NCBI RefSeq assembly: GCF_000744655.1
Contig: NZ_JQMJ01000001.1
Location: forward strand, 248,001-312,000
Direction: 5' to 3'
DNA: 64,000 nt
From: Streptacidiphilus rugosus AM-16
GTDB taxonomy: Bacteria; Actinomycetota; Actinomycetes; Streptomycetales; Streptomycetaceae
In this document: in pieces, positions 38,813 to 59,478 of the stretch
Position numbering within the stretch: position 1 is the stretch's first letter
Layout: the number at the start of each line of letters is the position of its first letter
Program-made: the position numbers and the translations under genes
Notes under the pieces: model-generated
Databases searched by the model: none
Seen by the model: the letters and a program-made list of their open reading frames with translations, nothing else
Told to the model about the DNA's origin: nothing

Positions 38813-41233
38813 TCACCCGACCCCGAAAAGGATCTTGTACTTCTTGCCCTGGTTCTCGTTGAAGACCGTCCACGCGCTCACCACCGCGTCCCGGTCCACC
38901 CCCATCTGCACGACATCGGGGATCGCGGACGGATAGGTGACCTCCACGGTCTTGCCGAAGCGGCCCTTCTTGACGGTCCCCTTGGTCAGCAGCCGCCCGA
39001 GGAAAGCGTATTCGGGACGGGCCGCTGCACCGTCGGGGACGAGCTGGAGCTTCCCGTCGAACACCCAGTACTCGGAGCCGGACCTGAGACTCTGCTTCTG
39101 ATTGTCGGTAAAAGCCTTCGGGAGGCTTATGATGAACCCGTTTTCGCCATCCTTCCTGAGTTCGACGGCCTGATCCTTGAGCCATACAGAGCCACCGGTG
39201 CTCAGGCATCGGATGAATTCTTGTGGCAGAGAATCTCGGTCCAATTGGCCGGTGTCGGATTCAATGAAATTGAGGGCGTCGGCAATGGCGACAAAGCCCC
39301 CGCGGTGGATGACCATCGAGCCGGCCCCGGTCTCGATCTTCACATGCACCGCTCCGGCTCCGGGGGAGCGCCGGGAGGAATTCCTGGCAGTGTCCGCCTT
39401 TACCGCGTATTGCCGCCCCCCGATGCGCGCCAGCGTATCCAGGACGGGCTGCCTGTCACCTATGTTCGTCAGATAGGCGCACTTCACTGGCGAATTACTG
39501 CCCCGAGGAGGAGGCTCCTTGTGCTTCCGCAAATATCCATGGGGCCGCACTCCTGTGATGGCCAGCAGTTGGTCGGCCGTCCCCGATGCGCCCTCGAAGA
39601 GGATGTAATCATTGAGCAAGTAGTATCCGACGGACTGATCGTACCTCAGGTTCCTCCAGTACTGCCGGTTGATTTCGCGCATTTCCTCTGCGTCGATTTT
39701 GAATCGGGCACTGCGGCTCTCGAGCCCCGTGCTGAGCTTCACGGTCCCGTGGAAGGGGCGGCAGTTGACCCTCTGGGAATCTCCGGGCCGCATGTCCCGC
39801 ACCTTGCGCGGAAATCTGTCCAGCGGGACATTTGCCCTACGAAGACGCACCCCGCCCGCGTCCGCCAGGCTGACGACCACATCGTCCTCCCCCGGAGGGG
39901 CAGCCGTGCCGACCCGCTCCGCCTTCTCCTTGGCCGCAGAAGGAGTCGAGGCCGGGATCTTCGGCTGTGCCGGGGCGACGGGAGTCTGTTTGGGTTTTTG
40001 GCCCGCCACGATCGGACTCCTCGCAGGGAGAGCCAGTGTCGAAGGAGCCGAAGTAGACTGCTTTAGTCCTGCGGACAGAGGTTGTTTCTGTCTCACGTCC
40101 GCCTGCTCGACGGTGCCCTTGGGAGGCTGCGCCGCGCCCTGGGAAGCCCGCCGGGCCGTCCAACCTGTAGCGTAGGGCTTAAAAATTTCCCGGTCTTCTT
40201 CTTTGGCCGGGCGGCGCTGTATATTTGTTTTCTTTGCCAGCTCGAACGCTATCCGTGCGCTCTTTGTAGTGAGAGCCAGCGGCATTTTTTCGCCGAGTAT
40301 GACAACCTCGGTCGTTTCAGTTCGCCTTCTGAAGGCAGAGCCCGCGTCGCTTTCGTTGAACGTGTAGGTTATTTCCGTCTGAATCTCGCCGTATTTGACC
40401 GAGAATCCCTGGTTCGGCCCCGGATTCCATCCGGACAGAAGGTGCCAAAGATCCTCTACTTTGCATTTTTGCAACAATCGGGCGGCTGCTCCCAAAGTTC
40501 GTAGATCGACATCGTGCTTACCCGCGCCACCTAGGTCGAGCGTGAACTTTGCGGCATGGCTCTCTGACTTTTTTCTCCAGTACTCGTACTCCTTCCAGCC
40601 TTCCTCGCCTTTACCGTCCTTGTCATCGCTGTAGACATAGACGCCTTTGCTGTTCAGTGCATAGTACCTCGTGCCACGCAGCACGGCTCCGTCGTATTCG
40701 TAACCTTGTAGCTTGGATTCTTCGCCAAGCTGGCGTTCAAGGCGATTGGATATCTCTTCCCACGTCCACCATGTCTCCGATCCCTCCTTGTCGGCGTATA
40801 CGTACTGCTTCTTTCCCGGATCCCATTTGTACCATTCAAGCTGCGGATGATCCTTCTTCCTGTCGAACTCAGGATTCACCTTGGCTTTGAGATCAGCAAA
40901 TTCAATACTTTGTTGCCGTTCCCAGATGCTGACCAGCAGGCCCAGCGCCGAGAAACCTTCCTTGGCATCGGTCGCCAGAAAGCACCGAAGGACTTCACCC
41001 CAGTACCATCCGGTTTGCCCGCCTTCTTCAAACCAACTCTTGAGGGTGGGCAGAAGGGCAGCGTCACTGAGGTACATCCAGTTCTCGTCCCCATAGAACA
41101 AGAGATTGGCGAACCTCCGATTTACGTCAGGGCGCTCGTCCTTGTATGCCAAGCGGGGATCATCGGGGTCCCCATCAACGATCGGATGCAGTAGATACTT
41201 GAACGCTTCAAGGTAATCCTGATCATTGACCAT
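38813..41233 (-). CDS. Unrecognised 806-residue protein sharing an N-terminal domain with the eCIS-proximal 291-residue protein
   Basis: No known family recognised. Residues 1-110 align with residues 1-100 of the product at 58603-59478: Lys12, Leu15, Pro17, Asp57, Leu61, Leu64, Trp67 and Phe68 occupy identical positions. Residues 130-230 are rich in Tyr and Trp, with repeats such as WYKWDPGKKQYVYAD and GTRYYALNSKGVYVYSD. Residues 360-450 are a Pro/Ala/Lys linker (IVAGQKPKQTPVAPAQPKIP). The C-terminal 350 residues look globular and contain basic patches, without catalytic motifs I can name. No signal peptide. The first half is clearly AT-richer than the flanking LAL gene, suggesting transfer. 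It converges on the LAL gene with a 17-base gap. Confidence 0.75.
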   Translation of the reverse strand: MVNDQDYLEAFKYLLHPIVDGDPDDPRLAYKDERPDVNRRFANLLFYGDENWMYLSDAALLPTLKSWFEEGGQTGWYWGEVLRCFLATDAKEGFSALGLLVSIWERQQSIEFADLKAKVNPEFDRKKDHPQLEWYKWDPGKKQYVYADKEGSETWWTWEEISNRLERQLGEESKLQGYEYDGAVLRGTRYYALNSKGVYVYSDDKDGKGEEGWKEYEYWRKKSESHAAKFTLDLGGAGKHDVDLRTLGAAARLLQKCKVEDLWHLLSGWNPGPNQGFSVKYGEIQTEITYTFNESDAGSAFRRRTETTEVVILGEKMPLALTTKSARIAFELAKKTNIQRRPAKEEDREIFKPYATGWTARRASQGAAQPPKGTVEQADVRQKQPLSAGLKQSTSAPSTLALPARSPIVAGQKPKQTPVAPAQPKIPASTPSAAKEKAERVGTAAPPGEDDVVVSLADAGGVRLRRANVPLDRFPRKVRDMRPGDSQRVNCRPFHGTVKLSTGLESRSARFKIDAEEMREINRQYWRNLRYDQSVGYYLLNDYILFEGASGTADQLLAITGVRPHGYLRKHKEPPPRGSNSPVKCAYLTNIGDRQPVLDTLARIGGRQYAVKADTARNSSRRSPGAGAVHVKIETGAGSMVIHRGGFVAIADALNFIESDTGQLDRDSLPQEFIRCLSTGGSVWLKDQAVELRKDGENGFIISLPKAFTDNQKQSLRSGSEYWVFDGKLQLVPDGAAARPEYAFLGRLLTKGTVKKGRFGKTVEVTYPSAIPDVVQMGVDRDAVVSAWTVFNENQGKKYKILFGVG

Positions 41234-41467
41234 TGGCTTCTCGGCTTCTATCCCATCCGTAGAAAAAGCTCGCTCCGTCGTCCTTGCCCGGAGGGCAGCG
41301 AGGCCGGTGCCGCTGGAAAGCCCGGCCGGGGCAGGAACGTTTGCTTGGGTGGCAGTCTCGCCCAGTAGGCGACCTGCATGGCAGGTCAGTAGGGCGTCCT
41401 TTCAGGCATTCCTGGATGTTGACTTCCTCTCCCTCCTCATGGAGGGGATTCGCCTCAGCCTCGCGCC
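41234..41467. other. Spacer between the 806-residue gene and the IS nest
   Basis: No supported gene. The presumed promoter of the minus-strand 806-residue gene must lie here. Nothing else is recognisable. Confidence 0.4.
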
Positions 41468-41516
41468 TGAACCCGAATCCACCGGGTGATCTGCACAGTG
41501 GAGGGTTGCCCCAACG

Positions 41517-41586
41517 AAGAGATGCCTTGTGGCCTGCGATGTGAGTTCTCTACGCTCCATCACGCACGATCAGCAAGGCATCTCTT
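41517..41586. repeat. 13-base inverted repeat in the IS1380-like left end
   Basis: AAGAGATGCCTTG (41517-41529) and CAAGGCATCTCTT (41574-41586) are perfect complements separated by 44 bases. It may be part of the IS1380 left end or the terminal repeats of a lost short element. Confidence 0.6.
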
Positions 41587-41626
41587 AAGACCGCGTCCTA
41601 TGTGGTGATGGCTCGTTGGGCTGGTC

Positions 41627-41975
41627 ATGGGGCGGGGTACGTGGAGTTGGATTGTTCCGGACGGGTTGTGGGAGCTGGCGGAGCCGTTGATGCCGCCGGA
41701 TCGGGTGCGGCCGCAGGGCAGCGGGACGGCCAACGCGCCTGATGAGACGCTGTTCGCGGCGATCATCTACGTGCTGGTCAGCGGTTGCGCCTGGCGGTCG
41801 CTACCGCCGTGCTTCGGGGTCTCGAAGTCCACGGTTCACCGCCGGTTCCTGATCTGGTCCAGGGCGGGGTCTGGGGCCGGCTGCACGAGGCCGTGTTGCA
41901 CTTGCTGGACGACGCCGGTCTGGTCGACGTCTCGCGCGTCGTGCTCGACTCCGCCCACGTCCGGGTTAAAAAAGT
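41627..41975 (+). pseudogene. IS5-family transposase N-terminal fragment
   Basis: Encodes SWIVPDGLWELAEPLMPPDR and VLVSGCAWRSLPPCFGVSKS, the DUF4096 N-terminus of IS5-type transposases. A frameshift near 41865 moves the reading to GVWGRLHEAVLHLLDDAGLV and VVLDSAHVRVKK, where the first catalytic Asp lies. The gene is cut at about 41975 by the IS110 sequence, so more than half of the transposase is missing. Confidence 0.8.
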
Positions 41976-41979
41976 GCCC

Positions 41980-43085
41980 CTATCTCCTTCGGCAAGCTGA
42001 TGCGATGGCGGGGGCTTGGTAGAAGGTGCCGTCGCGGAGCATGGCGAACAGGACGTCGACGCGTCGTCGGGCGAGTGCGACGAGGGCTGCGACGTGGTGT
42101 TTCCCTTCCCCGCGTTTCTTGTCGTAGTAGGCGCGCGACTCCGGCTGCGACAGGGAGGCGAACGCGGCGAGGTAGAGCGCGCGTTTGAGCTGCTTGTTGC
42201 CGCGTCGGGCGGGGTGTTCACTGCGGATCGAGGAGCCGGATCGCCGGGTGACTGGAGCCAGGCCGGCGTAGGCGGCCAGGTGTCCGGCGGTGGGGAACGT
42301 GCTTCCGTCGCCGACGTCGATGAGGATGCGGGCGCCGGTCCTGACCCCGATGCCGGGCATGGAGGTCAGGACCTGGGAAAGAGGGTGGGCCTCCAGCAGT
42401 TCCTCGATCCGCGCGGCCAGTGCCCTGCGCTGGTCGAGGACTGCGGCGAGGGAGGCGGCGAGGCTGGGGACGATCAGTGCCGCGGCCTCGGTGCCAGGAA
42501 CGACCACGGTCTGCTCGTCGAGTGTGGTGAAGATGTCCTCCACCAGCCGTTCGGCCATCCGCGGGGCATTCGGCCGCAGCAGCGTGACCAAGCGGCGGCG
42601 TCCGGCCTTGCGGATCTGTCCGGGTGAGCCGAAGCGCTCCAGCAGGGCGAGGACAGCAGGGTGGTCCAGACGCGGGCCCAGGACCTGCTCGAGCGCATCT
42701 GCAGTTCAGCCAGGGTCTCGTCGGCCGCCTCAACAGTTCGGAGGGTGTGCGGCATCATGCGGGCGGCGTCTGCGATGACATGGGCGTCCCTGGCATCGGT
42801 CTTCGCCTCGCCGGGGTAGAGGTCCGCGATCCGGCGCATCGTCAGACCGGGTAAGTAGGCGATGCGGCAGCCGGTGTCCCGGGCCACGGCCAGTGGTAGG
42901 GCCCCGATCGAGGCGGGCTGGTCGACGACGACCAGGACGGTGCCGTGCCTGGCCTGGAGCTTGGTGAACAGCTCGCGCAGCTTCGGTTCGGTGTTGGGCA
43001 GTGGCTTGTCGAAGACGGTCTTTCCGGCCGGAGTCAAGGCCGTGGCCTGGTGCTCGCCCTTGCCGACGTCCAGTTGTTCGCCACC
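41980..43085 (-). pseudogene. IS110-family transposase, internally deleted and frameshifted
   Basis: The N-terminal RuvC-like (DEDD) part is readable from QLDVGKGEHQATALTPAGKT to YPGEAKTDARDAHVIADAAR, then LAELQM. A deletion of some 40 family residues and a frameshift follow near 42670; the other frame resumes LEQVLGPRLDHPAVL and continues through VLTSMPGIGVRTGARIL and SIRSEHPARRGNKQLKRALY, the transposase_20 domain. The native start codon appears lost at the junction with IS1380 at about 43080. The element cannot make its transposase. Confidence 0.8.
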
Positions 43086-43397
43086 TGGCGCTACCACCCG
43101 GTATTCACCGACAGCCCGTTTGAGATGCTCCAGGCCGAGCACCAGCACCGGCAACACGCCACGATCGAGCAGGTCATCGCGGACGGCAAGGGCTCCGCGC
43201 TCGCGAACCTACCCTCGGGATCGTTCCAGGCCAACGCCGCATGGCTGACCCTGTGGGCAATCACCCACAACCTGCTGCGGGCCGCGGGAGCACTCGCCGG
43301 AACCGCCACGATCCGCGCCCACCTCGTCCACGTCCCGGCCCGAATCGCCCGCTCGGCACGGCGGTTGACGCTCCACCTGCCCACACGCTGGCCCTAA
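43072..43397 (+). pseudogene. IS1380-family transposase C-terminal fragment
   Basis: Encodes LFATWRYHPVFTDSPFEMLQ, then HATIEQVIADGKGSALANLP with the catalytic Glu region, SGSFQANAAWLTLWAITHNL and IRAHLVHVPARIARSARRLT, the standard C-terminus of Streptomyces IS1380 transposases. The N-terminal two-thirds are missing because IS110 and IS5 sequences lie in their place. Confidence 0.8.
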
Positions 43398-43720
43398 CAG
43401 CACAACTTCACCGACCTGTTCGACGCCACCTATCCACCACCGGCGCGCTAACCACCCGACCACCGCCCGCGAGGGCCATACCAGAACAGACGTGGAAAAG
43501 CTGGGCAGACCAGCCGGCACTCCACACCCTCCACCCGGGAATCAGCCCCGAGCACCCGAAACGATCACTCCCCGTCACCTCGGTGGATTCGGGCTGAGAC
43601 TCCGGCGGCTGATCCCCGCCGGACGCTGCCGCGCGATCACACAGCGCCTCCGCGGCAGCACGAAGCCGCTTCACCCCGTTTCGGCCTCCAAGGATGGAGC
43701 GGGCTTCGACGTTCCCGTCC

Positions 43721-43915
43721 TCAGAAGCTGTATGCGGGCTCAACCGGCGCCCAGGGGCCGTCGCCCGTCGCGGCCTTCTGGTGGCGCGCCAGCAGGACGC
43801 GGCCGTCGCTGGCCAACGATCCGTTGCCCATGGCGTCTGCCGCGGCGATACCGCGGCGGAAGTGCTCGCAGACGGCGCAGTCGTGCGCCTGTCCCGGCTT
43901 CTGCACGTTGTCCAT
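43721..43915 (-). CDS. Small hypothetical protein beside a GntR regulator
   Basis: 64 residues. Starts MDNVQKPGQAHDCAVCEHFR, with a CxxC pair, and ends in PWAPVEPAYSF. GAAGGGG precedes the ATG at 43915. It diverges from the GntR gene, and a perfect operator lies between them, so it is probably a GntR target. Small CxxC proteins paired with short GntR regulators are common in Streptomyces accessory regions, but the function is unknown. Confidence 0.6.
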   Translation of the reverse strand: MDNVQKPGQAHDCAVCEHFRRGIAAADAMGNGSLASDGRVLLARHQKAATGDGPWAPVEPAYSF

Positions 43916-43990
43916 GTCGTCGCCCCTTCCGGCGTCGGCCACAGCCCCGGACCGTTAGCGCGGTCGCGGGGCGCATTTACTTCAATCGTA

Positions 43991-44020
43991 AAGAGCTATG
44001 CATGGCTCTGTATAGCTCTT
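43991..44020. promoter_or_regulatory. GntR operator
   Basis: AAGAGCTAT (43991-43999) and ATAGCTCTT (44012-44020) are perfect nine-base inverted arms. The spacer contains GGCTCTGT, so overlapping half-sites AGAGCTAT/GGCTCT are also possible. It lies between the divergent 64-residue gene and the GntR gene. Confidence 0.7.
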
Positions 44021-44070
44021 AGGTGCTTTCCGGACGTTCGCGCAGGTCAAGGGAGACGTACGGTGCAACT

Positions 44071-44325
44071 GTGAGCACTGTCCCCGCCTTCGACCCGCCG
44101 CCCGAGCAGCTGCGATACGTCGCATTGGCCGACCACGTGGCTGCGCGGATCGCAGCCGGCGAGCTGCGCCCCGGCGCCCGCCTTCCCTCCGAGCGGGACC
44201 TGGCTGCGGAATACGGTGTCGCCTACCTGACGGTCCGGCGCGCTGCCGAAGTGCTCCGCGAGCGGGGGCTGATCGTCACCGTGCACGGACGCGGCACGTT
44301 CGTGGCCACACCGCCGGAGCAGTAG
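44071..44325 (+). CDS. Short GntR family regulator
   Basis: 84 residues, consisting almost only of the winged helix-turn-helix: RYVALADHVAARIAAGELRP, LPSERDLAAEYGVAYLTVRR, LRERGLIVTVHGRGTFVA. There is no ligand-binding domain, as in the many single-domain GntR proteins of actinobacteria. The GTG at 44071 fits the fold, although the nearest SD (AAGGGAG) is 15 bases away; a longer form from GTG 44023 is possible. It likely represses itself and the divergent small gene through the 43991-44020 site. Confidence 0.8.
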   Translation: MSTVPAFDPPPEQLRYVALADHVAARIAAGELRPGARLPSERDLAAEYGVAYLTVRRAAEVLRERGLIVTVHGRGTFVATPPEQ

Positions 44326-44429
44326 GCCGTCCGACCGCCTACGTGATGCGCCTACGCTGTGGGCCTGGTTTGCGTCGAACCATGAGCGAAGCGACAGACT
44401 TGACGGGTGCGTTTCTCTCTCGAACGACC

Positions 44430-44542
44430 TGGCAATCCTGCTCGGCAACGTCGTGTCCGCCGCAGCGCGCGGGTCCTGGCCGATCTGGCCCACGGACGCC
44501 TGCAGGCCAAGCACGGGGAGCTGATGGAAGCGCTGCTAGGAA
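44430..44542 (+). pseudogene. Possible transposase fragment (IS110-like)
   Basis: One frame reads ARVLADLAHGRLQAKHGELM then EALLGM, resembling a helical segment found in IS110 transposases. Neighbouring frames are open only briefly. It stops exactly at the left end of the IS21-like element, which suggests that it was cut by that insertion. Low certainty. Confidence 0.35.
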
Positions 44543-44812
44543 TGTGATTTCGTCGGGCCATATGAGGACCACGATTCCGCTGGCATTGGGAGCCAGGGTT
44601 GGGCCGTTCGTGGCGGGGATGTACTCGCCCGTGGTCGGTGATCTCCGGTGTGAACGGGAGCCACTCCGCTGAGATTGGGAGCCACTGATCGGGTGACCTG
44701 CCCGATGTCACGGGAGTGTCCGTGGGGCGGGGGGCCGGGGGGCCGATAGCTTGTGGCTGCGGGCCCCGGGGGCCGCCTCCCTGACAAGATGCGGTCAGGG
44801 GCCCGCGCCCAG

Positions 44813-45286
44813 TTATGCCTCGGGCGGGACGCCGAAGAGCCGTTCCAGGACGGGTCGCGCGCTGGAGTGAAGCGGCGGGGGCTCGGCGAAGGTGTGCCAC
44901 CAGCGGAAGTCCCCGGGCCAGGTGAACTGGCCGGCCGCGGGGATCGTGACGTCGAAAGCGATCTGCAGGACCTGGCCGTCGTCCGGGATGTCCCAGACGC
45001 TCGACGCGGCGAACGCGTAGTCCCAGCCCGCCAGGCCCAGGTTGACGGTGCAGAGCCAGTCCAGGGTGTCCGGGACGGTCTCGCCGCGCTGGACCCAGGC
45101 GAGCGGAGGCGACCACTGGCCGTCGGCGGGCTTGAGCAGGAGGACGTGGTCGCGGTCGTCGCTGCGGTGGACCAGGGCCAGGACCTGGAACCGGTTGACG
45201 CCCGCGCGGCGGCTGTCCTTGACCAGTTCGGCCAGGGCGGCGTCGGTCGCGTGGTGGCGGCGCCCGGGGTTGTCGGAGTCGGTCAT
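44813..45286 (-). CDS. IS21 passenger protein with a degenerate Nudix fold
   Basis: 157 residues. The sequence VLLLKPADGQWSPPLAWVQR then GETVPDTLDWLCTVNLGLAG has the length and order of a Nudix hydrolase, but where REVxEE should be it has CTVNL, so the metal-binding glutamates are missing. The start ATG overlaps the istB stop (ATGA), so it is the third gene of the IS21 operon. A catalytically dead Nudix-like protein in a transposon may bind a nucleotide or partner, or regulate transposition; this is inference. Confidence 0.65.
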   Translation of the reverse strand: MTDSDNPGRRHHATDAALAELVKDSRRAGVNRFQVLALVHRSDDRDHVLLLKPADGQWSPPLAWVQRGETVPDTLDWLCTVNLGLAGWDYAFAASSVWDIPDDGQVLQIAFDVTIPAAGQFTWPGDFRWWHTFAEPPPLHSSARPVLERLFGVPPEA

Positions 45287-46125
45287 TTCGGCGCCGGGAA
45301 GAGGGATTCCTGGGTGGCCTGATCGCGGTAGGACTCGGTGCCGGTCTGGATCAGCGTGCAGCGGAACGTGATCCGGTCGGCGATCGCCGCGCAGAGGCGG
45401 GCGTCACCGAAGGTCTTGTCCCACTCGGTGAAGGGCGAGTTCGTCGCGACCGCGGTGGCCTTGCGTTCCTCGCGCTCGGTGAAGATCTGGAACAGCAGCT
45501 TCGCGCCCTTGCGGTCCAGGTTCAAATACCCGAATTCGTCCAAACACAGGAGATCGATCTTGCTGTAGCGGGCGATCACGGAGGAGAGCTTGCGCGACGC
45601 GTCGGCCTCGGCGAGCTCGTTCACCAACGCCGAGGTCGTGGTGTAGCGGACCGACAGGCCGGCCTCGGCGATCGCGGTGCCGATCCCGATCAGGAGATGG
45701 GACTTGCCTGTGCCGCTGTCGCCGATCAGGACCAGCGGGCGGCCCTCGCGGACCCAGGTCGGGGACTTCAGGTCAGCCACGACCTCCGGGGTGACGTTCG
45801 GGTTCTTGGCGAAGTCGAAATCCTCCAGGCGCTTCGGCCGCGGGAACCGCGCCAGCCGCAGGAGCCTCTGCTGGCGGCGGACGTCACGGTCGGCGAGCTC
45901 GACCTGGAGCAGGTCCAGCAGGAACTGCTTGTAGGTGGCCTGCTCGCGCCGCGCGGCCTGGGCCAGGTCGATGAACCGCTCGCGGAACGCGGGCAGGCGA
46001 AGGTCCCGGCAGGCCTCGTCGATCAGCATGTCCTCCGGGTCCCCGGGCAGGGACTGGCGCCGCGGCGGGATCCGGTCGGTGTCGACCTCGTCGTCGTGGT
46101 CGGTGACGGTGATGGTGGGGCTCAT
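45283..46125 (-). CDS. istB: IS21 helper ATPase IstB
   Basis: 280-residue AAA+ ATPase that assembles on target DNA and recruits the transposase. Walker A is GDSGTGKSHLLIGIG, Walker B is IDLLCLDEFGYLNLDRKGA, and sensor-like NSPFTEW follows. The N-terminus RLPAFRERFIDLAQAARREQ is typical. The start overlaps the istA stop, so synthesis is coupled. The frame is intact. Confidence 0.9.
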   Translation of the reverse strand: MSPTITVTDHDDEVDTDRIPPRRQSLPGDPEDMLIDEACRDLRLPAFRERFIDLAQAARREQATYKQFLLDLLQVELADRDVRRQQRLLRLARFPRPKRLEDFDFAKNPNVTPEVVADLKSPTWVREGRPLVLIGDSGTGKSHLLIGIGTAIAEAGLSVRYTTTSALVNELAEADASRKLSSVIARYSKIDLLCLDEFGYLNLDRKGAKLLFQIFTEREERKATAVATNSPFTEWDKTFGDARLCAAIADRITFRCTLIQTGTESYRDQATQESLFPAPK

Positions 46126-47780: not shown

Positions 47781-47964
47781 CAGCGGTCTCCCTGACCCGG
47801 ACCGTGATCAACAAGCACAGCGTGACGGCCAAACGGCCCACCACTCCCGATTACGCCGAAAGCGGCATGTCACACACCATCACACCGGGTGGCTCCCGAT
47901 CTCGCCGGAGAAACACCGGCTCCCGATCAGGGCGGAGTCGTGGCTCCCAACAACCCCGTAGAAA

Positions 47965-49417: not shown

Positions 49418-49457
49418 GACGCAGGCGGGCGACGCCGCCGCGGCGGACCGGTCAGGC

Positions 49458-49500
49458 TCGGACAGGGGGCGGAATCGGTCCCATTCCGCCCCCTGTCCGA
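49458..49500. terminator. Strong bidirectional terminator
   Basis: An 18-base perfect stem (TCGGACAGGGGGCGGAAT and its complement) with loop CGGTCCC. It separates the small plus-strand frame from the convergent hydrolase gene. No T-tract follows. Confidence 0.8.
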
Positions 49501-49596
49501 TGCGCTATGCGGTCCGCGTCACGGCCACCCTGGCGCTGCACCAAGCCGCGTGCGTCCATTACGCCGACCCTGCCCAGAGCCGCAGGGCACCGGCGG

Positions 49597-50427: not shown

Positions 50428-50506
50428 GTGTGCTCCCAAGTGAAAGGTGGAAGTGGCTGGGCCGTCCGTTGGGACGCCCTGCCGCTTGGGAGAGCATTGA
50501 TCACAA

Positions 50507-50534
50507 GGCAATAGTTGTCAAAGCAATGCTTGCC
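50507..50534. promoter_or_regulatory. Tandem operator-like sites before the hydrolase
   Basis: GGCAATAGTTGTC (50507-50519) and AGCAATGCTTGCC (50522-50534) both approximate GRCAA-N3-TTGYC, the form seen in front of tetR at 2674-2686 and 2809-2821. The second contains CAAGCATTG in reverse complement, identical to the core of the 2674 site. Outer arms AGGCAA/TTGCCT also pair. Confidence 0.55.
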
Positions 50535-50760
50535 TAGGAATGGGTGATGTGCATCACGGCCCGCGGTCGCGGGGCGGAAGCGCCGCAGGCACAGCAAAGG
50601 GCCGCCGATGCCCGCAGTCGGTGGTGCGCTGCCCTCGCGAGGGGGCGGCCCAAGGTTGTTCGACTGCGGCTCGGCGGCCGTGGTCACACTGTGCGTCTCA
50701 CCTGGCGCCCGGCGGATACCCGTTCGGGCGTCCGTTGGTGCCGTGGACCTCCGGGTGCGT

Positions 50761-53544
50761 TCAAGAGACCGTGCGCAACTGTCGGCGGGAAGCCAGCCCC
50801 AGCTTCTGGTAGACGTGGCCCAGGTGGTACTCGACCGTCTTGACGCTCAGGAACAGCTTCTTGGCGATCTCATGGTTGGTCAAACCCTGGGCGGCGAGCC
50901 GGGCCACCAGCTGCTCGCGCTCGGTCAGGCCGGTGAACCCGGTTGCCGCGGTCGGTTCCGATGCCCTGGACCCGTTGCAGGAGGCGAGGCCGGCGGCGGT
51001 CCGGGCGGCGAAGGGTGCGGCGCCCAGCGCGCTGTAGCGCTGGTGCGCCACGCGCAAAGCCTCGAAGGCACGGCGGTGGTCACCCCGGGCGAGCAGCAGC
51101 GCGCCGTAGGCGTGCTCGAGCCGCGCCCGGTGCAGGGGAATGTCGTCGGGGGTGTCACCGAGGGCGATCCCGAGGCGGTACGCCTCCAGGGCTGCCACCG
51201 GGTCACCCTCTCGCTCGGCCAGCTGGCCGCAGGCCCAGGCGGAGATCGGGCCCAGGCACGGCATGCTCTCGGCCAGTTCGCGCAGCGCCGCGCAGCTCTG
51301 CCGGGCCTGGGCGAGCGTACCCGCGTACACGTGCGCTTCCGCGAGGAGGGGGAGCCAGGCGATCCGCCAGGCCGGCCGGATGTCCGAGTCCAGCTGATGC
51401 AGGACCGGACGCAGAGCATTGAGCATGCCCGGGCCGTCCGCTCGGGCCTGGGCGCAGACGGCGGTGGCCAGACAGGCGAAAAGCAGGTCGAAGTCGGGGC
51501 TGATGCTCGCCGCCAGCGCCGTGGCGGTCTGGGCATGCTGCTCGGCCTCGTCCCAGTGGCCGTGTCCTGCGGCCACCGCGGCGGCGACCGCATGGCACGG
51601 GGTCAGCCCGAGGACGTAATCGTCCACGACGGCCTGGGCGAGGAGCTGCTCGGTCAGCACGGCCGCCCGCTCCCAATCGCCGACCAGGTAGAGCAGGAAG
51701 GGCAGGGTCATGCAGGCGCTGTTGAGCCGAAGCTCGGAGACCGGGGAGCTCTCCAGCTGGCGGCTCATGTCGTCGATCCCGGCACGGAGCCGGCCGGCCA
51801 ACCCGCGCAGCAGGCCCCGGGCGAGCAGCTGCGGGCCGTCGCCAGTCCCTACCAGACGGGGGTCGGCCGGTAGCCGCATGAGCGCGGGCATGGACTCCAG
51901 GGTTCGCGCGGGACCGTCGATCTCCATGACGATGCACGCGAGGTAGAAGCGGGCCTCCTGCAGGGCACGGGAGTCCAGCAGAGCCCGGTCCAGGACTTCA
52001 TTGAGCAGGTCACGGGCCGGAGCGCGGCGCATCTGCCACGCGTACATCTGGCCCAGGCCGAGGCGGATCCGGTCCGCGAGCGCCGGATCGCCGTCCGGGC
52101 CGACCGCTTCCAGTGCCTGGAGGTAGTGTTCTTCGGCTTGGCCGAACTTGGCCGCGAAGTGACAGTAGCGCGCCTGGACGTAGGAGCGCAGGGGGCTCGG
52201 TGCACACTGCTCGACCTCGGCCCGCAGCGCGGCGGAGCGACGCGTGTCGTAGGCGAGCCGGTACTGGTAGCGGGCGACCGTCTCCAACAGGCGGCGCTCG
52301 TACTCCGCTCGCGAGTCCGACAGCTCGGCCGCCCACTGCAGCAGGACGGCGGCGTGCGCGATCCGGCCGGATGCGGTGACGCGGGCGGCTTCGTCCTCCA
52401 ACTCGGCGGCGAGGCCCGGGTCGACGTTGTCGGCGGCGGATACCCGGTGACGCCAACTGCTCTCGCGATCGACCAGAGGGATGACCGCGAGATGCAGCGC
52501 CCGGCGCCGGGACGGCTCGATCGCCGAGTAGACGGCATCACGCTGCAGCCGATGCTGGATCCGGATCGGGCTGGAAGGGTCGGATGGCCGCCAGCCGACC
52601 AGGCCGGAATCTATCGCGGGTCCCAGGGCGGCCGACGCGTCACCCAGTTCGGCCAGCTGCCCGACGAAGGCCAGGGGCGCCTCGGCGTCCAGAACCGCCA
52701 ACGCGTCCACGAGGAGCCTGCTGTCCGGCGGCAGTCGTAGGAGAACCTGGCGCACCGCGGCCGAGAGTGAGTCCGGCAGAGGCAGGGGGAAGGTGGGGTC
52801 GGCGAGATCGCGCGCCCCGCCACCCGTCAGAACCGAACGCAGGTAGAGCGGGTGGCCGCCGGTGTGCTCCCACAGGCGCCGAGCGGTATCGGCGGTCGAC
52901 GGTACGCCCCGCACGTCGGCCAGAAGGTTCACGTCCGCGATCGTGAGTTCCGGCAGCCGAAGGACGGTGGCTTTGCGCGCGGCCGAAGGGAGGCGGTCGA
53001 GAGCCTCGGCGGCGGCAGGGTTGAGCGCCTTGGCCCGGCTGTCGGTGCCGGCCGTGACCAGGACCAGGACCCGGTCCGCCCAGAGGCGGCGCAGGACGAA
53101 GCCGAGTACGCGCAGCGACTCCGCATCGGCTGAAAGGATGTCGTCGACCACCAAGGCCAGTGGCCCCTGCGCCTCCGCTGCCCCTATCAGTTCGATCAGA
53201 TCGGTGCCGACCTCGAGGGGAGAGGCGTCCCGGGCCGGCGTCCGGGGCAGGCCCCGGTCCGGCACGGTGAGCGCGGGGCCGACCTGGCGCAGCCACTGGT
53301 CGACGACGCCGAAGGGCAGGTCCTGCTCGTCGGCGTCGCAGCTGGCCCACCAGACGGTGAAGCCGTCCAGAGCGGCAACTGCCTCGCGGACCAGCGCGGT
53401 CTTGCCGATGCCGGTCTCGCCTTCGACGATCACCAGGCAGGGCGTTCCCTGCGCCGCCTCGTCGGCGGACTCGGCCAAGGCCGAGAGTTCCGCTGCCCGG
53501 CCCACGAAGGCCCACGGGTCGGAGGCGGAGTACAGCGAAGTCAT
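50761..53544 (-). CDS. LuxR family LAL regulator
   Basis: 927 residues. N-terminal PWAFVGRAAELSALA, Walker A GETGIGKTALVREA (about 42), Walker B LALVVDDILSADAES, long helical middle, and a LuxR HTH at the end: LTEREQLVARLAAQGLTNHE, LFLSVKTVEYHLGHVYQKLG. The Walker B region has DDILSAD where paralogues have DDVQWAD. Start ATG 53544 fits the family N-terminus, although the ribosome site is weak. It stands alone and could regulate the nearby eCIS; Streptomyces eCIS loci are known to include a LuxR-type regulator, but no direct evidence is present here. Confidence 0.88.
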   Translation of the reverse strand: MTSLYSASDPWAFVGRAAELSALAESADEAAQGTPCLVIVEGETGIGKTALVREAVAALDGFTVWWASCDADEQDLPFGVVDQWLRQVGPALTVPDRGLPRTPARDASPLEVGTDLIELIGAAEAQGPLALVVDDILSADAESLRVLGFVLRRLWADRVLVLVTAGTDSRAKALNPAAAEALDRLPSAARKATVLRLPELTIADVNLLADVRGVPSTADTARRLWEHTGGHPLYLRSVLTGGGARDLADPTFPLPLPDSLSAAVRQVLLRLPPDSRLLVDALAVLDAEAPLAFVGQLAELGDASAALGPAIDSGLVGWRPSDPSSPIRIQHRLQRDAVYSAIEPSRRRALHLAVIPLVDRESSWRHRVSAADNVDPGLAAELEDEAARVTASGRIAHAAVLLQWAAELSDSRAEYERRLLETVARYQYRLAYDTRRSAALRAEVEQCAPSPLRSYVQARYCHFAAKFGQAEEHYLQALEAVGPDGDPALADRIRLGLGQMYAWQMRRAPARDLLNEVLDRALLDSRALQEARFYLACIVMEIDGPARTLESMPALMRLPADPRLVGTGDGPQLLARGLLRGLAGRLRAGIDDMSRQLESSPVSELRLNSACMTLPFLLYLVGDWERAAVLTEQLLAQAVVDDYVLGLTPCHAVAAAVAAGHGHWDEAEQHAQTATALAASISPDFDLLFACLATAVCAQARADGPGMLNALRPVLHQLDSDIRPAWRIAWLPLLAEAHVYAGTLAQARQSCAALRELAESMPCLGPISAWACGQLAEREGDPVAALEAYRLGIALGDTPDDIPLHRARLEHAYGALLLARGDHRRAFEALRVAHQRYSALGAAPFAARTAAGLASCNGSRASEPTAATGFTGLTEREQLVARLAAQGLTNHEIAKKLFLSVKTVEYHLGHVYQKLGLASRRQLRTVS

Positions 53545-54094
53545 GCCGGCGACGATAACCGCCGGTCGCACGCGGTCGAGCTCCGAGCACGGCCACCGGC
53601 CCGCACGCACCCCAGGTCTGACTGTCGGTCAACGACGCCGGGTTCTTGCGCGCACGGGCAGCGGTGTGCCTCGGGTCCCGGGCGGGCGGATAGCCGGGGT
53701 GCGGAAGCCCCGCTACTGCCAATTCCGCAGCTCATGAGGCACGTGCGCGGCGTGCGTCTGGACGCCGGAGCACGCGGCAGGCGGCGACGTCACGACGTAC
53801 GGACTCATCCCGGGCCTCACCAAGGGGAACCGTCCTGCCCGATCGCCGGGCGGCGGCGATGCCTCTACGGGAGCCCGGCACGGAGCGATATCGCGCGCCC
53901 GTGCGGGCCGAGCTGCCCGATGAGCTGCCCGAACCGGGCCGGGCCACTTTCCGGAGCCCCTCGGCGCCGCTGCCCAGCATGCCGCCGGACACGTCAAAGC
54001 GCCCCCAGGCGGGGCGCGCTGGGGGCTTGGCACATCTCGGTCGTGGTCTGCGAAGCGGGTCAGAGCGCCGGGGCGTTCGCCCCGAACCCTGGCG
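53545..54094. other. Region without a supported gene
   Basis: About 550 bases. Frames on both strands overlap one another, none with convincing start signals or domains. It must contain the promoter of the minus-strand LAL gene. GCGCCCCCAGGCGGGGCGC-like complementarity near 53998-54020 could form a hairpin after the minus-strand gene ending at 54095. Confidence 0.4.
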
Positions 54095-54460
54095 TCACTC
54101 CGGTTCGGCGGCCTGGGTCGAGGGCCAATCCTCAAGGCGGTACAGGGTGTCGAGGGCATTGAGTGTGATCGTCCGGAAGGCTCCGGACGCCTGGAGGTAG
54201 ATGGCCACCGGGCCCTCGTTCGAGCTGGTGTCGATCTCCTTGATCGTGATCTCCTGGGGCCGGGTGTTCTCGGTCGTCGACGTCCACACCTGGCCGGGAG
54301 CCGCGAGCACGTACACGTTGCCGCTGGCGAACGCTTGCACCGCGACCCGTAGCGCCGCAGTGTCCTCCAGAAGATCCTGGGCCTTCAGTCGCGCCTGGTA
54401 GTCACGTACGAGCTGTGTCGCCCGGGCGGCGCCGATGACGCGTTCCAGTTCCATCGTCAT
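54095..54460 (-). CDS. Hypothetical protein, paralogue of the gene at 3586-4035
   Basis: 121 residues. Shares with the 149-residue product at 3586 the blocks MELERVIGAARATQLVRDYQ, ASGNVYVLAAPGQVWTSTTE, EITIKEIDTSSNEGPVAIYL and ITLNALDTLYRLEDWPSTQ. No known domain, signal or membrane segment. GGGAAGG precedes the ATG at 54460. The conserved aromatic/charged end (ALDTLY..WPS) is the best family mark. Confidence 0.75.
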   Translation of the reverse strand: MTMELERVIGAARATQLVRDYQARLKAQDLLEDTAALRVAVQAFASGNVYVLAAPGQVWTSTTENTRPQEITIKEIDTSSNEGPVAIYLQASGAFRTITLNALDTLYRLEDWPSTQAAEPE

Positions 54461-54750
54461 GATGCCTTCCCGTGGGGTGCCCGGAGCTCCGGGACTCCTG
54501 CGATCATGATGGCTCCTTCGTACGGGATCTCGGAGCGCCAGGTTCTTGCGCCCGGGGAGGCCCCAGTATGCGAGCGCCGCCCAGCGTGACGGCGGGTCCG
54601 GCGGCGTACGCGCTCGGGCACACCGCGATGCCCGTTCGGCTGCTCATGCGGGGAGTGACGCGGTACCTCCGTGGCAGTGGAATGGCGGGACCGGACAGCC
54701 CCTGTCCGACTAGAAAACGCAGGCGCCACGGAAAGATCAAGGCGGTACCA

Positions 54751-55044
54751 GTGCGCGGAAACGTCAAGTGGTTCAATGACACCAAGGGATACGGCTTCAT
54801 CTCACGGGACGGAGATGGCGTTGATGTATTCGTGCACTTCAGTGCCATCATCGGCCGTGGCCATCGAACGCTCTACGAGGGCAACGTCGTCGAGTTCGAG
54901 GTCGAGCAGGGCAAGAAGGGTCCGGCTGCCAAGAACGTTCAGGTGATCGCGGAGGGCGTCCCTAACCGGCTGCAGCACGCCCGTCCCCAGCAGACCCGGA
55001 AGGAACCGGCTCGGGTCCTCTTCGACGTGGATCACAAGTCCTGA
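54751..55044 (+). CDS. Cold-shock domain protein with a C-terminal extension
   Basis: 97 residues. A single cold-shock domain (1-66) with [20 protein letters not shown] (RNP1) and [10 protein letters not shown] (RNP2), binding single-stranded RNA or DNA. It has a longer and more basic tail ([17 protein letters not shown]) than classical 67-residue Csp proteins. The GTG start at 54751 follows AAGGCGG. A strong terminator lies 44 bases after the stop. It is transcribed alone. Confidence 0.85.
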
Positions 55045-55087
55045 GAGGAGCTGGAGCGAGCGTCAGGGACGCCCGCCTTCTCGCATC

Positions 55088-55130
55088 GGTGTCCGGACCC
55101 CGTTGTTCTGCGGGGTCCGGACACCGCTTT
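55088..55130 (+). terminator. Terminator of the cold-shock gene
   Basis: GGTGTCCGGACCCCG (55088-55102) pairs perfectly with CGGGGTCCGGACACC (55111-55125) around an eight-base loop, followed by GCTTT. Confidence 0.85.
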
Positions 55131-55404
55131 GCGCTGATTTGCATCGGACCGCTGCATCCCACTCGCCGCCGACGTGCGGCACCAGCCGGTTGGCTTGGGA
55201 CCGGGCAGGTCCCCGGCTCTCGCGTCTCCGCAGCGACGCTCTGACCGGCCAGCTCCGGCACGGCGGCCACGTTCAAGAGTTCCAACCCACCGTATAGCGC
55301 ACCGTGCGCCGGGCCGTGTTCAAGGTTTCGAGGTGGTCGGCGGTCGTGTTCGCCCCGACTGGATGCTCACCGTGAACCTCGCCCACGACCTGGACTGAAC
55401 GCGA
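55131..55404. other. Region without a supported gene
   Basis: Short frames only. The stretch before 55400 (LTVNLAHDLD-like) may belong to a decayed gene upstream of the transposase remnant. Nothing firm is seen. Confidence 0.35.
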
Positions 55405-55546
55405 ATTGGAGCGGGCCGAGCCGGACACCATGCGCTACCGGCTCTACCACCTGCCCGCCCGTTTCGCCAGGCGCCAGTGGCTGCTGCGGATCGACCGCCC
55501 GCACCTGGCCCTGGGCCGACCAGGGCGACTCTGCTGCTTTATTCGG

Positions 55547-57288
55547 TCAGGCCGTGAGTCGGTGGCTGAGGCGGGTGAGACGGCTGGTGCGTGACAGGGC
55601 GGGTGGGGTGTTTTCGGTGCTCCAGTGGGCGTCGAGGCGGATGATGTTGAGTGCGGTGGCGGAGAAGGCGTGCTGGAGGCGGACCTTGGGCAGGCCGCGG
55701 TAGCGGGCCCGGCGGATTCCGGTGACGTCCAGAGCCTGGTTGATGGTGCCCTCGACTCCCGCGCGCAGGGCGTACTTGGCCAGCCAGGTCGGTTCCGTTT
55801 GCTCCTTGCGGGCGGTGTCGAGTCGTTCGTGCAGCTCCTGGGGCTTGACGGTGAGGGTCCGGAAGCCGCGTCGTGCACTGGTGCACCTGGACCGGGCTGG
55901 GCAGGGGCGGCTGTCGTAGCGGGAGAACTCGACGACGATCGCCGCGGTGCCGTGTTGGGTGACAGGGGAACCATCCGGTACTGGTCCGGCCTTCGGGGCA
56001 CCTCGCCTGCCGGGCTTTCCAGTCGATGCGGAAGGCGTTCTTGTCGAAGCCCGCGGCGGCCTTGGCCTGTGGGGAGTGGTCGGTCCGCATCGGCGTGACC
56101 ATGGTGATCTCCTGCCCGGCGGCCGCTTGGACCAGCGCGGCCGAGGGGTAGCCGGCGTCCAGGTAGTGTTCGCCCGGGGCCAGGCCCCGGGCGAACAGGT
56201 TCTCCTGGATCGGCGTGGTGGCGTTCACGTCCGGCACGGTCGCGTCGGTGGTGTGCACGTCCGTGATCAGCCGTGGCAAGCCCACCGGCGACGGCCCGCC
56301 ACCGGCTTCGGCTTCGGCTTCGGCTTCGGCTTCGGGAGGGGCGTCGCAGCTTTCCGTCAGATGGATCTTGTATCCGCACCAGAAGAGGTCCTCGCCCTTC
56401 GCCGCCCAGCGCGGGTCCGGGTCGTACGGAGAGGCGAGGCGCAGATGGCCGGGCGGGACGCCCTCCTGCTCGGCCTCCCGCTTGCGGATCACCTCCCGGC
56501 CCCGGGCATCGGTGGTGACCATGTAGGTCTGCACCGTGATCCGCCGCAAACAGCGCGACCGGCTCCAGGGTCCGCAGCACCGGCGGGGCCGTCGGTGCCC
56601 ACACCGCCCGCAGCACAGCGAGAGCGTCCTGCCCGAACACCGTGGCCAGCCGGTCCCGCTTGGTCTCCGAGGCCGGCAGCTTCCAGCCGTCCACCCGCTC
56701 GCCGTAACGCAACGCGAACTCGGGCACGTTCACCACCTGGGCCAGCCAGGTCGGGGCGACGACCGCCAACGCCTCCAACGCGGCGCGCACCGACTCTCCG
56801 GCCAGCTCCAGGCGGTTGAGGTCCCGCACCGCGCTGATCACATGGGTGGAGTCCGTGCGCTGCTTGCCCCCGGACCCGACCAGTCCCTGCACACGGCACC
56901 AGTCCAGCAGCCGGTCGAAGACCAGGCGCTCCATGCCGTGCTCGACCAGCCGGGCCCGGAACCGGGCCAGGACGCTGTCGTCGAAGCCGGTCGCGCCCAG
57001 TTCCATCCCCATCGCGTACTTCCAGTCGATCGCGCGCACCGCCATCACTGCGGCCTGCCGATCGGTCAGGTCCTCGGCGAACTGCAGCACCGTGACCAGC
57101 GACAACAACGCCGGCGACAGCCCCAGGGCACCGCGGACCCCGAACGCCCCCGTGAACGGCGCGTCCGCGAAGACCTCCCCGAGCCGGTCCCGCACGCTCA
57201 TCGCCAGCGAGCCCTTCGGGAACGCCGACCGCGCGACCCGGACCGTCTCCTCCGGAATCTCCGGTAAGCCCTTGACCTGCAGCGACAT
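55547..57288 (-). pseudogene. IS1182 transposase with two frameshifts
   Basis: From ATG 57288: MSLQVKGLPEIPEETVRVAR, FADAPFTGAFGVRGALGLSP, KQRTDSTHVISAVRDLNRLE. Near 56550 the frame shifts to VQTYMVTTDARGREVIRKRE, DLFWCGYKIHLTESCD, LDAGYPSAALVQAAAGQEIT. Near 55960 it shifts again to a third frame encoding ELHERLDTARKEQTEPTWLA and GVEGTINQALDVTGIRRARY, ending RLSHRLTA. All three blocks match the family in order, so the gene was once complete. Confidence 0.85.
56304..56333. repeat. Five copies of GGCTTC
   Basis: Short tandem hexanucleotide encoding an (Ala-Glu)n run on the minus strand inside the broken IS1182 transposase. Copy number could vary by slippage without breaking the frame. Confidence 0.85.
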
Positions 57289-57449
57289 CGCACCACCCCC
57301 TACGGCCCCACGACAGAACACGGCCGCAGAAGCGATCATCCCTCAACCACCATGACCATGCGGCCAATTACGCAGCAGAGTCGCCCTGCTGGGCCGACGC
57401 CTTCGTCCTGGCCAGGGAACGGCTCACCACACTCCCCGCCGTCACCTGA

Positions 57450-57724
57450 CAGCCGGTCCCGAACCCCGACGATCAGGGGGAAACCGCAGGTTCGGGCAAG
57501 TGGAACCCGGCGTCCCCGAAACGACCTTGACGACCCGTCCCGAGCGGCGAAGGGACATTACGGGGAACCAGCCGAGCCGATCAGCGACCACTTACCGCTG
57601 ACGAATCGAGGTCGAAGAGCCGTCCGGGCAGGCCTGCGAGGTTAAATTGCAAGCGAAGTCACCTGTCACGGACCCAGCCTCCGACCTACGCAAATGATGG
57701 AAGTCGTCAATCGAGATTGATTCG
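57450..57724. other. Region without a supported gene
   Basis: No gene seen. GC falls sharply from about 57640 toward the low-GC genes on its right, marking the border between IS debris and the foreign pair. Confidence 0.4.
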
Positions 57725-58603
57725 CTATATATTAACATTGGCTTTTTCCTCGAGTGCTTCCAAATTCAAATTCTCCTTCGAGCGCTTCACTGAATTGCTA
57801 ATGAGCTCAAGGGATTTTTGAGTCTTGCTGGCATCGGTGATGCTCTGATCCAGAATCGGAATAATGCCACGCAGAGGCTCCACGTCTACAATTATTTCCG
57901 ACAAGACATCGAGTGCATTCTCGTGGTCGACAATTCGCTCCTCGATCTCAATCACCGCTTCCGTATTGGAGCGCTTATTCTTCCTTAGCCTCTTTAGAAG
58001 TTGCTTTATTCTTTCATCCCGCTCCGCAAGTTGCCTGCGCAGCTCCGCATTCTCCCTCAGGAGCGCACTATTCCCTCCGAACTGGTTTTGCATCTCTGTC
58101 ACCTGTTGCTTGAGCTCTCGCGTCAGCTCCAGGTTCTTTTGCGCTGCATCTTCCTCGCTGGCGAGCCACTTCAGATACTCATCGTAAATGTCGGATATTT
58201 GACAGGCTCCAGTATATATATTAGTCAAGGCCGCACCTATGCCGGTGGCAACCGCACCCCAGGCTTGTATGGCATAGCCGGTATCGACCCCGGAAAGATC
58301 GCTCACATTCATTGGCGCGGCATCAAGAGGAGCCTGTATTTGCTGGGCCTGTCCGAGCGGTATATTGGTTCCGATCAAGGTGCCGGCGGAAACAATACTG
58401 CTCACCATATTAACGCGTGCATATCGGAGTTTGTTCACAAGTTCGGGGGGGCATCGGGGTGGCGCCCAAAACAGTGAGGCATACCGCCACGCCCCATGAG
58501 GCGGGGGTGCAACGGGAGGCTTCATGCGCGGAGGCGGCGGACCATTGTCCTCACTTTCGGAATTTCCCTCAGAGTCAGAGTCGTAGGCTTGCATAGCTTC
58601 CAT
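57725..58603 (-). CDS. Unrecognised coiled-coil protein, partner of the 291-residue protein
   Basis: 292 residues, low GC. N-terminal acidic/Pro region (residues 1-40, DSDSEGNSESEDNGPPPPRM). Two Gly/Ala-rich hydrophobic stretches follow: SSIVSAGTLIGTNIPLG and YAIQAWGAVATGIGAALTNI. Residues about 150-225 form a strong charged coiled coil (LELTRELKQQVTEMQNQF, LRENAELRRQLAERDERIKQ), then a helical end. No signal peptide. Its start overlaps the stop of the upstream gene by one base (TAATG), so the two are translated together. The mix of hydrophobic hairpin and coiled coil resembles membrane-active or pore-forming proteins, but no family is recognised. Confidence 0.75.
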   Translation of the reverse strand: MEAMQAYDSDSEGNSESEDNGPPPPRMKPPVAPPPHGAWRYASLFWAPPRCPPELVNKLRYARVNMVSSIVSAGTLIGTNIPLGQAQQIQAPLDAAPMNVSDLSGVDTGYAIQAWGAVATGIGAALTNIYTGACQISDIYDEYLKWLASEEDAAQKNLELTRELKQQVTEMQNQFGGNSALLRENAELRRQLAERDERIKQLLKRLRKNKRSNTEAVIEIEERIVDHENALDVLSEIIVDVEPLRGIIPILDQSITDASKTQKSLELISNSVKRSKENLNLEALEEKANVNI

Positions 58604-59478
58604 TATTTTTCTCCTTCTGAATTCTCAAGGGAACCGAGCATGGCGTCGATATCGGCGAGCATACTGTCCACGCTGATACCCAGCCCGCTCTGAAGAAGGT
58701 TGATGGCGACATCAAGAGGAACCTCCTGATTGTCTTTTTCCCCGAGTTCACTACTGACGACCTGCTCGCCTTTGCTGCCGATCACGTACTGCCATTCGCC
58801 GTTGTAAAACCAGGCCTTGGAGGCCTCGTCGTAGGGGAGCCAATCACCCTTGTAAAACCAGCGATTGGAAGCCACGTCGTAGGGGAGTCGGCGCTCGGTC
58901 TCGTGGTCACGCTCCCACAGGCCGGTTTCCCGGTTTTGGTACTCACGCACTCCGTCGGTCGCGGTTCGCTGCCAGTTGTCGTCTGCTTCGACGTAGTGCG
59001 GCCCGGTCTGGTCTTGCGCCGCAATTCGTGCCTTAATGGTCAGCCACTCGCCGCCAGAAGGGGCATCGGAGTACAGGTACTCGCGTCCGACCATCCGATA
59101 GTATTGGGTGCCAGGGATCGGGTCGCGCGCGAACCCAGCATCGTTGCTCAGACTGGTTTCTTTGGTAGCGTCAGCCTCCTGCCGAAACCAGACCGTGATC
59201 GCCGGCTCGAGAAAGACGAGAAAGTCAGCGAGGCTTCCGCTCATCCACATTTCGAATACGGAGGACTCATCGCCAAACCATTGCTGAAGTGCGGCGAGGA
59301 CCTCCACGTCGGTCCAGTTGGTCGTCCAGGTGGTGTCATCGTCGAACCAGAGCCGAGCAAGATCCTCCCTGCACTGATTCTTCGCTCTATTTGTCTCTGC
59401 GTCCAGTTCTGTCTCGTCAGCCGTGACGGGACTGAGCCACTGCTTTAGCAAGATCGCATGGCTGGCGCCAAGTGCCAT
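58603..59478 (-). CDS. Unrecognised protein sharing an N-terminal domain with the 806-residue protein
   Basis: 291 residues. Residues 1-100 align with the 806-residue product at 38813-41233 (Lys12, Leu15, Pro17, Asp57, Leu61, Leu64, Trp67, Phe68 at identical positions, then W..RQ). Next comes GTQYYRMVGREYLYSDAPSG, also similar to GTRYY...YVYSD in that protein. Residues about 187-222 are a tandem repeat, LPYDVASNRWFYKGDW and LPYDEASKAWFYNGEW. The C-terminus is acidic (INLLQSGLGISVDSMLADID). ATG 59478 has GGGAGA five bases upstream; the longer frame to 59580 lacks support. GC is low. It is close to, and divergent from, the eCIS AAA ATPase gene. Confidence 0.78.
   Translation of the reverse strand: MALGASHAILLKQWLSPVTADETELDAETNRAKNQCREDLARLWFDDDTTWTTNWTDVEVLAALQQWFGDESSVFEMWMSGSLADFLVFLEPAITVWFRQEADATKETSLSNDAGFARDPIPGTQYYRMVGREYLYSDAPSGGEWLTIKARIAAQDQTGPHYVEADDNWQRTATDGVREYQNRETGLWERDHETERRLPYDVASNRWFYKGDWLPYDEASKAWFYNGEWQYVIGSKGEQVVSSELGEKDNQEVPLDVAINLLQSGLGISVDSMLADIDAMLGSLENSEGEK
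58802..58887. repeat. Tandem repeat with a 48-base period
   Basis: Two imperfect copies (58802-58839 and 58850-58887) beginning TTGTAAAACCAG and ending GTCGTAGGGGAG. They encode the two LPYD.AS..WFY.G.W repeats of the 291-residue protein. Confidence 0.85.

Follow-up and report, generated by a model that had tools for sequence, protein, structure and literature searches.

We analysed a 64,000-nucleotide stretch of the Streptacidiphilus rugosus AM-16 genome (the window; C1:248001-312000 of a 9.0 Mb genome), in which two distant genes, P0001 and P0002, encode proteins that begin with the same domain, called here the N-domain. This domain, about 105 residues long and predicted to be helical, is followed by an aromatic YxY..W module, and we think it reasonably likely that the two together form a cargo-marker domain of the extracellular contractile injection systems (eCIS) of Streptomycetaceae. 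The analysis established the homology of the domain, its modular architecture, a common slot in eCIS clusters, an exchange between a fused (cis) and a separate (trans) form, and the diversity of its partners. A cargo marker is the simplest account of these data, because the domain holds a cluster slot, occurs fused or as the gene next to its partner, and accompanies unrelated AT-rich proteins. According to the account in PMC13277306, the choice of eCIS cargo is an open question, notably in actinobacteria, where many effectors have no recognisable signatures; if one domain marks fused as well as next-gene cargo, orphan effectors could be found by profile search and the loading question would become experimentally testable. 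The genes concerned are the following.

38813..41233, minus strand: P0001, 806 residues, intact open reading frame (ORF), fused-cargo form; N-domain at about 1-110, aromatic modules at 133-148 and from 187, a region shared with its paralogues to about 345, a Pro/Ala/Lys-rich linker at about 390-450, and a unique basic part at residues 341-806 (isoelectric point, pI, 9.8).
58603..59478, minus strand: P0002, 291 residues, intact ORF, acidic (pI 4.3), separate-adaptor form; N-domain at 1-104 predicted helical, aromatic module at 123-139 predicted to be a beta-hairpin, then further aromatic repeats.
57725..58603, minus strand: P0003, 292 residues, putative cargo of P0002.

Homology and distribution of the N-domain

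Compared directly, P0001 and P0002 gave a non-significant BLASTP match (E 0.55); aligned without gaps they share 9 identities over 68 residues (shuffle p 0.029) and have a BLOSUM62 score of -5 (shuffle p ~0.001). Their homology is secure because two paralogues and 11 proteins of other genomes bridge the pair. The paralogues of the P0001 N-terminal region, P0005 (526 residues, 41%) and P0004 (808 residues, 36%), lie on the same contig and align with P0001 to about residue 345, after which they diverge. In searches of 438 called proteins, P0002 was found at E 5.6e-9 with a profile confined to the three P0001-type proteins, and P0001 at E 3e-10 with a profile that lacked them. An 11-row profile lacking both the P0001-type proteins and P0002 recovered P0002 at 1.7e-11 and P0001 at 2.9e-7, the next unrelated protein scoring 0.75; since most of these 11 rows had been gathered with a profile already containing the P0001-type proteins and P0002, the P0001-type-only profile is the cleanest test. 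Leave-one-out runs recovered all 15 rows at E <= 5.9e-9 (best non-member in all runs, 0.12), and with the N-domain alone again 15 of 15, at E <= 2.9e-4. The module alone, taken from the P0001-type profile, found P0002 at 1.5e-4.

The shared N-terminal domain, which the initial annotation had proposed from these two proteins, is thus real, since profile searches through intermediates secure the homology over the whole region. All eight residues named there (Lys12, Leu15, Pro17, Asp57, Leu61, Leu64, Trp67 and Phe68) coincide, but the alignment over 68 residues is not free of gaps as claimed: the only invariant residues of the 15-row alignment, an F and a W (F45/W51 in P0002, F46/W52 in P0001), sit one residue off the ungapped register in its middle part. 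The aromatic module is indeed present in both proteins, although P0001 has two and the second had been paired with that of P0002. Both genes are AT-richer than their neighbours, as had been remarked (guanine-cytosine content, GC, 0.586 in P0001 and 0.579 in P0002 versus 0.688 +/- 0.034 in 64 other called genes; fourth and third lowest among 67), and BLAST found no similarity between their C-termini, which had been described as unrelated.

The domain had also been called unrecognised, which agrees with the database searches: P0001 and P0002 have no Pfam or NCBIfam matches even at E 10, and sequence searches of PHROGs, PADLOC and PDB gave weak matches only (E >= 0.0046, the lowest belonging to the P0003 coiled coil). 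In the open-access literature searched, we found no description of the shared N-domain, and no paper joining a contractile injection system with Streptacidiphilus, or with Kitasatospora and an effector. Structure prediction of the N-termini, also suggested in the initial annotation, was carried out with AlphaFold2 on residues 1-150 of P0002 (15 sequences), and in the model (mean pLDDT 79.3, pTM 0.58) helices run from residue 2 to 104, followed by a beta-hairpin that coincides with the aromatic module. A Foldseek search with this model returned no matches at E <= 0.001 in BFVD (viral models) or PDB.

The family looks rare and patchy. Among 394 Streptomycetaceae genomes the three-row profile of P0001-type proteins found one remote place in each of two further genomes, and the profile extended with those two and P0002 found 16 places in seven genomes; in 396 genomes across the phylum, the source genome alone gave a match. 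In these searches, few of the first-look candidates of each genome are scored (9 of 62 in the source genome, G000, and 2 of 13 in a search for the partner family fam17, described below), and members can be missed. A pattern scan of GTDB yielded seven loci, all already known, in Streptacidiphilus melanogenes, S. anmyonensis and Kitasatospora sp. MBT63, while an earlier scan of GTDB contigs with three P0001-type sequences gave no relatives and tblastn against plasmids gave no matches for P0002, for P0003, or for the N-terminal region or the C-terminus of P0001. Three of the member genomes are drafts (about 150 contigs in G002, 110 in G007 and 850 in G206; the first two belong to the genus of the source genome), and linkage across the ends of contigs cannot be seen in them, in either direction. 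Gene calling used a home-made script, which missed or shortened some genes (for example 35799-38795), and one counted member, on contig C80 of G002, is short (150 residues).

Fused and separate forms and their variable partners

The N-domain was found in two arrangements. In cis it stands at the N-terminus of P0001, P0004, P0005 and a 688-residue protein of genome G208, the last without a module. Its trans form is a protein of its own, acidic in most cases and encoded directly upstream of a variable partner, as in P0002 and P0003. The separate proteins have a pI of 4.05-4.40 in 10 of 11 cases and 5.52 in the remaining one, and pI values of 9.45-10.82 were calculated for the C-terminal parts of P0001, P0004 and P0005. 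P0003, which the initial annotation had omitted, is the likely cargo of P0002. Its start lies inside the P0002 stop codon, with a 1-nucleotide overlap, and the short version called by the script (57725-58312) has the lowest GC of the 67 genes (0.495). All its profile matches are sub-threshold and of coiled-coil type, the best in Pfam being FliT (E 0.0098), and we do not claim it as a remote member of fam17 (E 0.11). In all eight pairs measured the partner comes next on the same strand, after a gap of 13-75 nucleotides, and the trans adaptor and its partner are probably co-expressed.

The exchange between the two arrangements is seen in fam17, whose members (710 or 744 residues) directly follow an N-domain gene in genomes G314 and G012, while in the G208 protein the N-domain occupies about the first 105 residues and the remainder is fam17. 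The G208 N-domain, left out of the profile, was found at 6.3e-8. Among 392 genomes, fam17 was detected in four at E <= 0.001, every time adjacent or fused to an N-domain; the copy in G002 is remote (3.1e-4 in the genome search, 3.9e-13 in another comparison), and a more distant relative on contig C132 of G206, for which the G002 copy is the sole link (E 1.9e-7), comes after an orphan N-domain gene. In the model of the G208 fusion, five helices reach to residue 103 and are followed by long helices as far as 515 and by a beta-rich end. The model has low confidence (mean pLDDT 64.0, pTM 0.38) and its alignment held the same family, so that it does not count as independent evidence.

In BLAST at a cut-off of E 0.01, the 15 sequences treated as cargo (partners as well as C-terminal parts) fell into 10 groups, between which remoter kinship is possible: five are fam17-type, two papain-like and eight single, with three of the 15 coming from one locus (the P0005 tail, P0006 and the gene after P0006). 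The constant N-domain with variable C-termini, which the initial annotation had compared with delivered effectors and polymorphic toxins, was therefore borne out, and the family shows the trait of such proteins, one N-terminal domain kept constant while the C-termini, or the partners in the next gene, are unrelated to each other. In each of the 10 pairs compared, some of them orthologous, the partner gene has a higher AT content than the N-domain gene, as expected of exchanged cargo. The papain-like pair gave a sub-threshold match to Peptidase_C39_2 (E 0.081, one of the two tested) and no NCBIfam match; a CdiI_3 immunity gene (L056:7167-7562, minus strand, E 7.9e-30) lies shortly downstream of one of them, and no immunity gene was recognised after its orthologue in L058. 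The single cargo at L055:8356-9339, also without an NCBIfam match, has a Ser-rich linker and, by eye, an HSE...CxxC motif, which we take to be deaminase-like. The 458-residue gene after P0006 (L011:6869-8245, minus strand) has the same first six residues (MTQPPK) and is a possible second cargo of P0005.

If the domain marks cargo, the N-domain would bind the eCIS particle or its loader and be recognised there, the modules or the C-terminal part would hold the cargo, covalently or by binding, and the cargo would be packed into the tube and released on contraction. In cis the N-domain would start a larger protein with a varying C-terminus; in trans it would act as an adaptor for the cargo encoded just downstream. 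Recognition, loading, delivery and toxicity are what we infer. We suggest more tentatively, as something close to an even question, that the N-domain serves eCIS as an autonomous loading tag, its fold unmatched in our searches, and works on any fused or adaptor-bound protein; if so, new injectable cargo could be built by swapping what follows it, even far from the eCIS cluster.

An unlikely alternative is that the N-domain proteins are dedicated cytosolic chaperones or neutralisers that hold the next-gene product until assembly and are themselves neither packed nor delivered. The small size and acidity of most separate N-domain proteins (10 of 11, as given above) and their position directly before the partner gene would suit such a role, but in P0001, P0004 and the G208 protein the domain is covalently joined to a large protein and would travel along with it unless cleaved.

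Linkage to eCIS clusters and alternative readings

The eCIS-related features at the end of the window, next to P0002, are as follows.

59846..61114, plus strand: DUF5925-AAA ATPase, divergent from P0002, a possible loading ATPase.
61603..62421, minus strand: Pvc16-like tail terminator gene of the eCIS cluster (PF14065, E 1.2e-19).
62511..64000, plus strand: eCIS sheath gene (PF04984), running past the window end.
Beyond the window (L009): further eCIS genes, including one eCIS_core (DUF4157) gene.

Sheath genes (PF04984) are present in all seven member genomes, the only genomes covered by this count. Of 14 counted N-domain family genes, seven lie within 27.4 kb of a sheath gene, a distance fixed after the data were seen, where 0.18 would be expected, and none of 1e6 simulations reached seven; with the shared slot collapsed to one locus, 4 of 11 are near a sheath gene, which was reached in 7 of 1e6 simulations. 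The two places left out of the 16, on contigs C36 of G206 and C99 of G007, are truncated and have no sheath gene on their contig, and both adjoin a Pvc16 gene. The linkage to eCIS structural genes expected of eCIS cargo is therefore found for half of the counted genes. A profile search scored for proximity to sheath genes had been recommended in the initial annotation, and it produced relatives in seven genomes, part of them physically placed in eCIS clusters.

Six loci (G314, G012, G002 C151, G208, G206 C36 and G007 C99; families named on G012) share the same slot, which consists of a He_PIG protein, two ferritin-like genes, the family gene, its partner where present, and Pvc16. The partner is a separate gene in three of them, fused in one and missing in two, and the N-domain is present in five, the gene of G007 C99 having lost it and kept only the modules. 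The truncated partnerless genes (L059:9194-9721, minus strand; L060:9753-10274, plus strand) may be what was left when cargo was lost. P0002 is separated from the sheath gene by 3 kb and is not exactly in the common slot, the DUF5925-AAA gene, a small gene and Pvc16 intervening.

We regard it as somewhat less likely than the chaperone role that the domain is part of a mobile island, of conflict or regulatory type, found in the same neighbourhoods as eCIS and not delivered by it. Orphan loci, transposase-like ORFs seen by eye near P0001 and its paralogues, and several large LuxR-type regulators on the same contig would fit an island, but the identical slot between ferritin-like genes and Pvc16 in six loci does not, and the proximity to LuxR genes is non-specific, as 15 pieces flanking other copies have no N-domain. 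We give least weight to the reading that the N-domain protein contributes to the structure or assembly of the particle (for length control, or as a plug or cap), with orphans as decayed or repurposed copies: it would explain the common slot beside Pvc16 and the long, tape-measure-like helices of the low-confidence G208 model, but the N-domain is rare, occurring in 7 of 394 genomes, although PMC13277306 describes CIS clusters as highly conserved in this class, and the partners vary widely.

Several observations weigh against the cargo-marker reading. Half of the counted genes (seven of 14) lack a sheath gene within the 27.4 kb limit, and in the source genome P0004 and P0005 lie 208 kb and 295 kb from one, and P0001 22 kb, with transposase-like ORFs between. 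The slot genes are orthologous and hence not independent, those of G206 C36 and G007 C99 are truncated copies with no partner, and the sheath match nearest to the G002 C151 member holds an internal stop (G002:C151:227524-227802, L050). The N-domain of G208 is not acidic (pI 8.07), and none of the partners matches a toxin family at the curated cut-off. Between sub-groups the N-domain alone is weak, the P0001-type profile finding P0002 at 3.3e-4 and G208 at 1.6, and the reverse N-domain-only profile finding P0001 at only 0.04 and its paralogues at 1.2e-4 and 5.4e-4. Taken together, the interpretation of the initial annotation is partly supported: a loading signal linked to eCIS is the best inference, while P0002 itself resembles an adaptor and not an effector.

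Three large LuxR-type (LAL) regulators of one subfamily also lie in the window:

18501-21110, minus strand.
35799-38795, plus strand.
50761-53571, minus strand.

The LAL copies near P0002, P0005 and one G206 member share about 40% identity with the one next to P0001. Contig C1 carries eight copies (one in two pieces) and Kitasatospora G206 gives 16 matches, and since the 15 pieces flanking other copies held no further N-domain genes, LAL regulators were rejected as a non-specific marker of N-domain loci. By eye, a 379-residue DUF5925-AAA-like gene adjoins a LAL gene in L082, and transposase-like ORFs lie at 41627-43157 and 55444-57339, beside P0001 and P0003. The eCIS cluster of S. anmyonensis (G002) may be decaying, given its sheath match with a stop.

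Comparison with known and proposed loading determinants

A close analogue is DUF4157 (PF13699), which, as described in PMC8213781, stands at the N-terminus of toxins or in an adjacent gene within eCIS clusters and for which cargo marking is one suggested role. The N-domain is fused or adjacent to variable proteins in eCIS loci, which may be toxins like the partners of DUF4157. However, no PF13699 match was found in P0001, P0002, P0004, the G208 fusion or one G206 member, and the HExxH motif is absent from all 16 family members, so that by these two sequence tests the N-domain is not DUF4157. A separate DUF4157-type family, fam10, is present in all six clusters compared, with HExxH in five of them; PF13699 was shown on the member of the source genome (L009:1317-4049).

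In Streptomyces lividans, Sle2 was proposed to serve Sle1 as an adaptor, and the arrangement described in PMC13277306 resembles that of P0002 and P0003, with an adaptor and an adjacent coiled-coil cargo of variable C-terminus beside an actinobacterial eCIS sheath gene. By that description, Sle2 differs in being a DUF4157 protein, and the sections of the source drawn on here describe no fused cis form for the pair. RIX of the Vibrio type VI secretion system also defines polymorphic effectors and adaptors for next-gene cargo, with orphan loci, as reported in PMC10435454. It belongs to a different machine and phylum and, in the description given there, is arginine-rich and defined on the first 55 residues of Tme1, whereas the N-domain is helical, about 105 residues long and acidic in most members.

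The signal peptides of PVC and Afp effectors are N-terminal loading determinants, as we propose for the N-domain, but according to PMC11297309 they are short, hydrophilic and likely unstructured, whereas the N-domain is conserved and predicted to be folded from residue 2. Within the same bacterial family, Sco4256-4258 and CisA of Streptomyces coelicolor are eCIS accessory or effector genes (PMC10066040, PMC12237407). As far as the parts of these papers used here describe them, Sco4256-4258 have one transmembrane segment each, with a ricin-type C-terminus in Sco4257 and Sco4258, and no likeness to the N-domain is mentioned in those parts; the same descriptions state that the three proteins share a similar N-terminus, as the N-domain members do.

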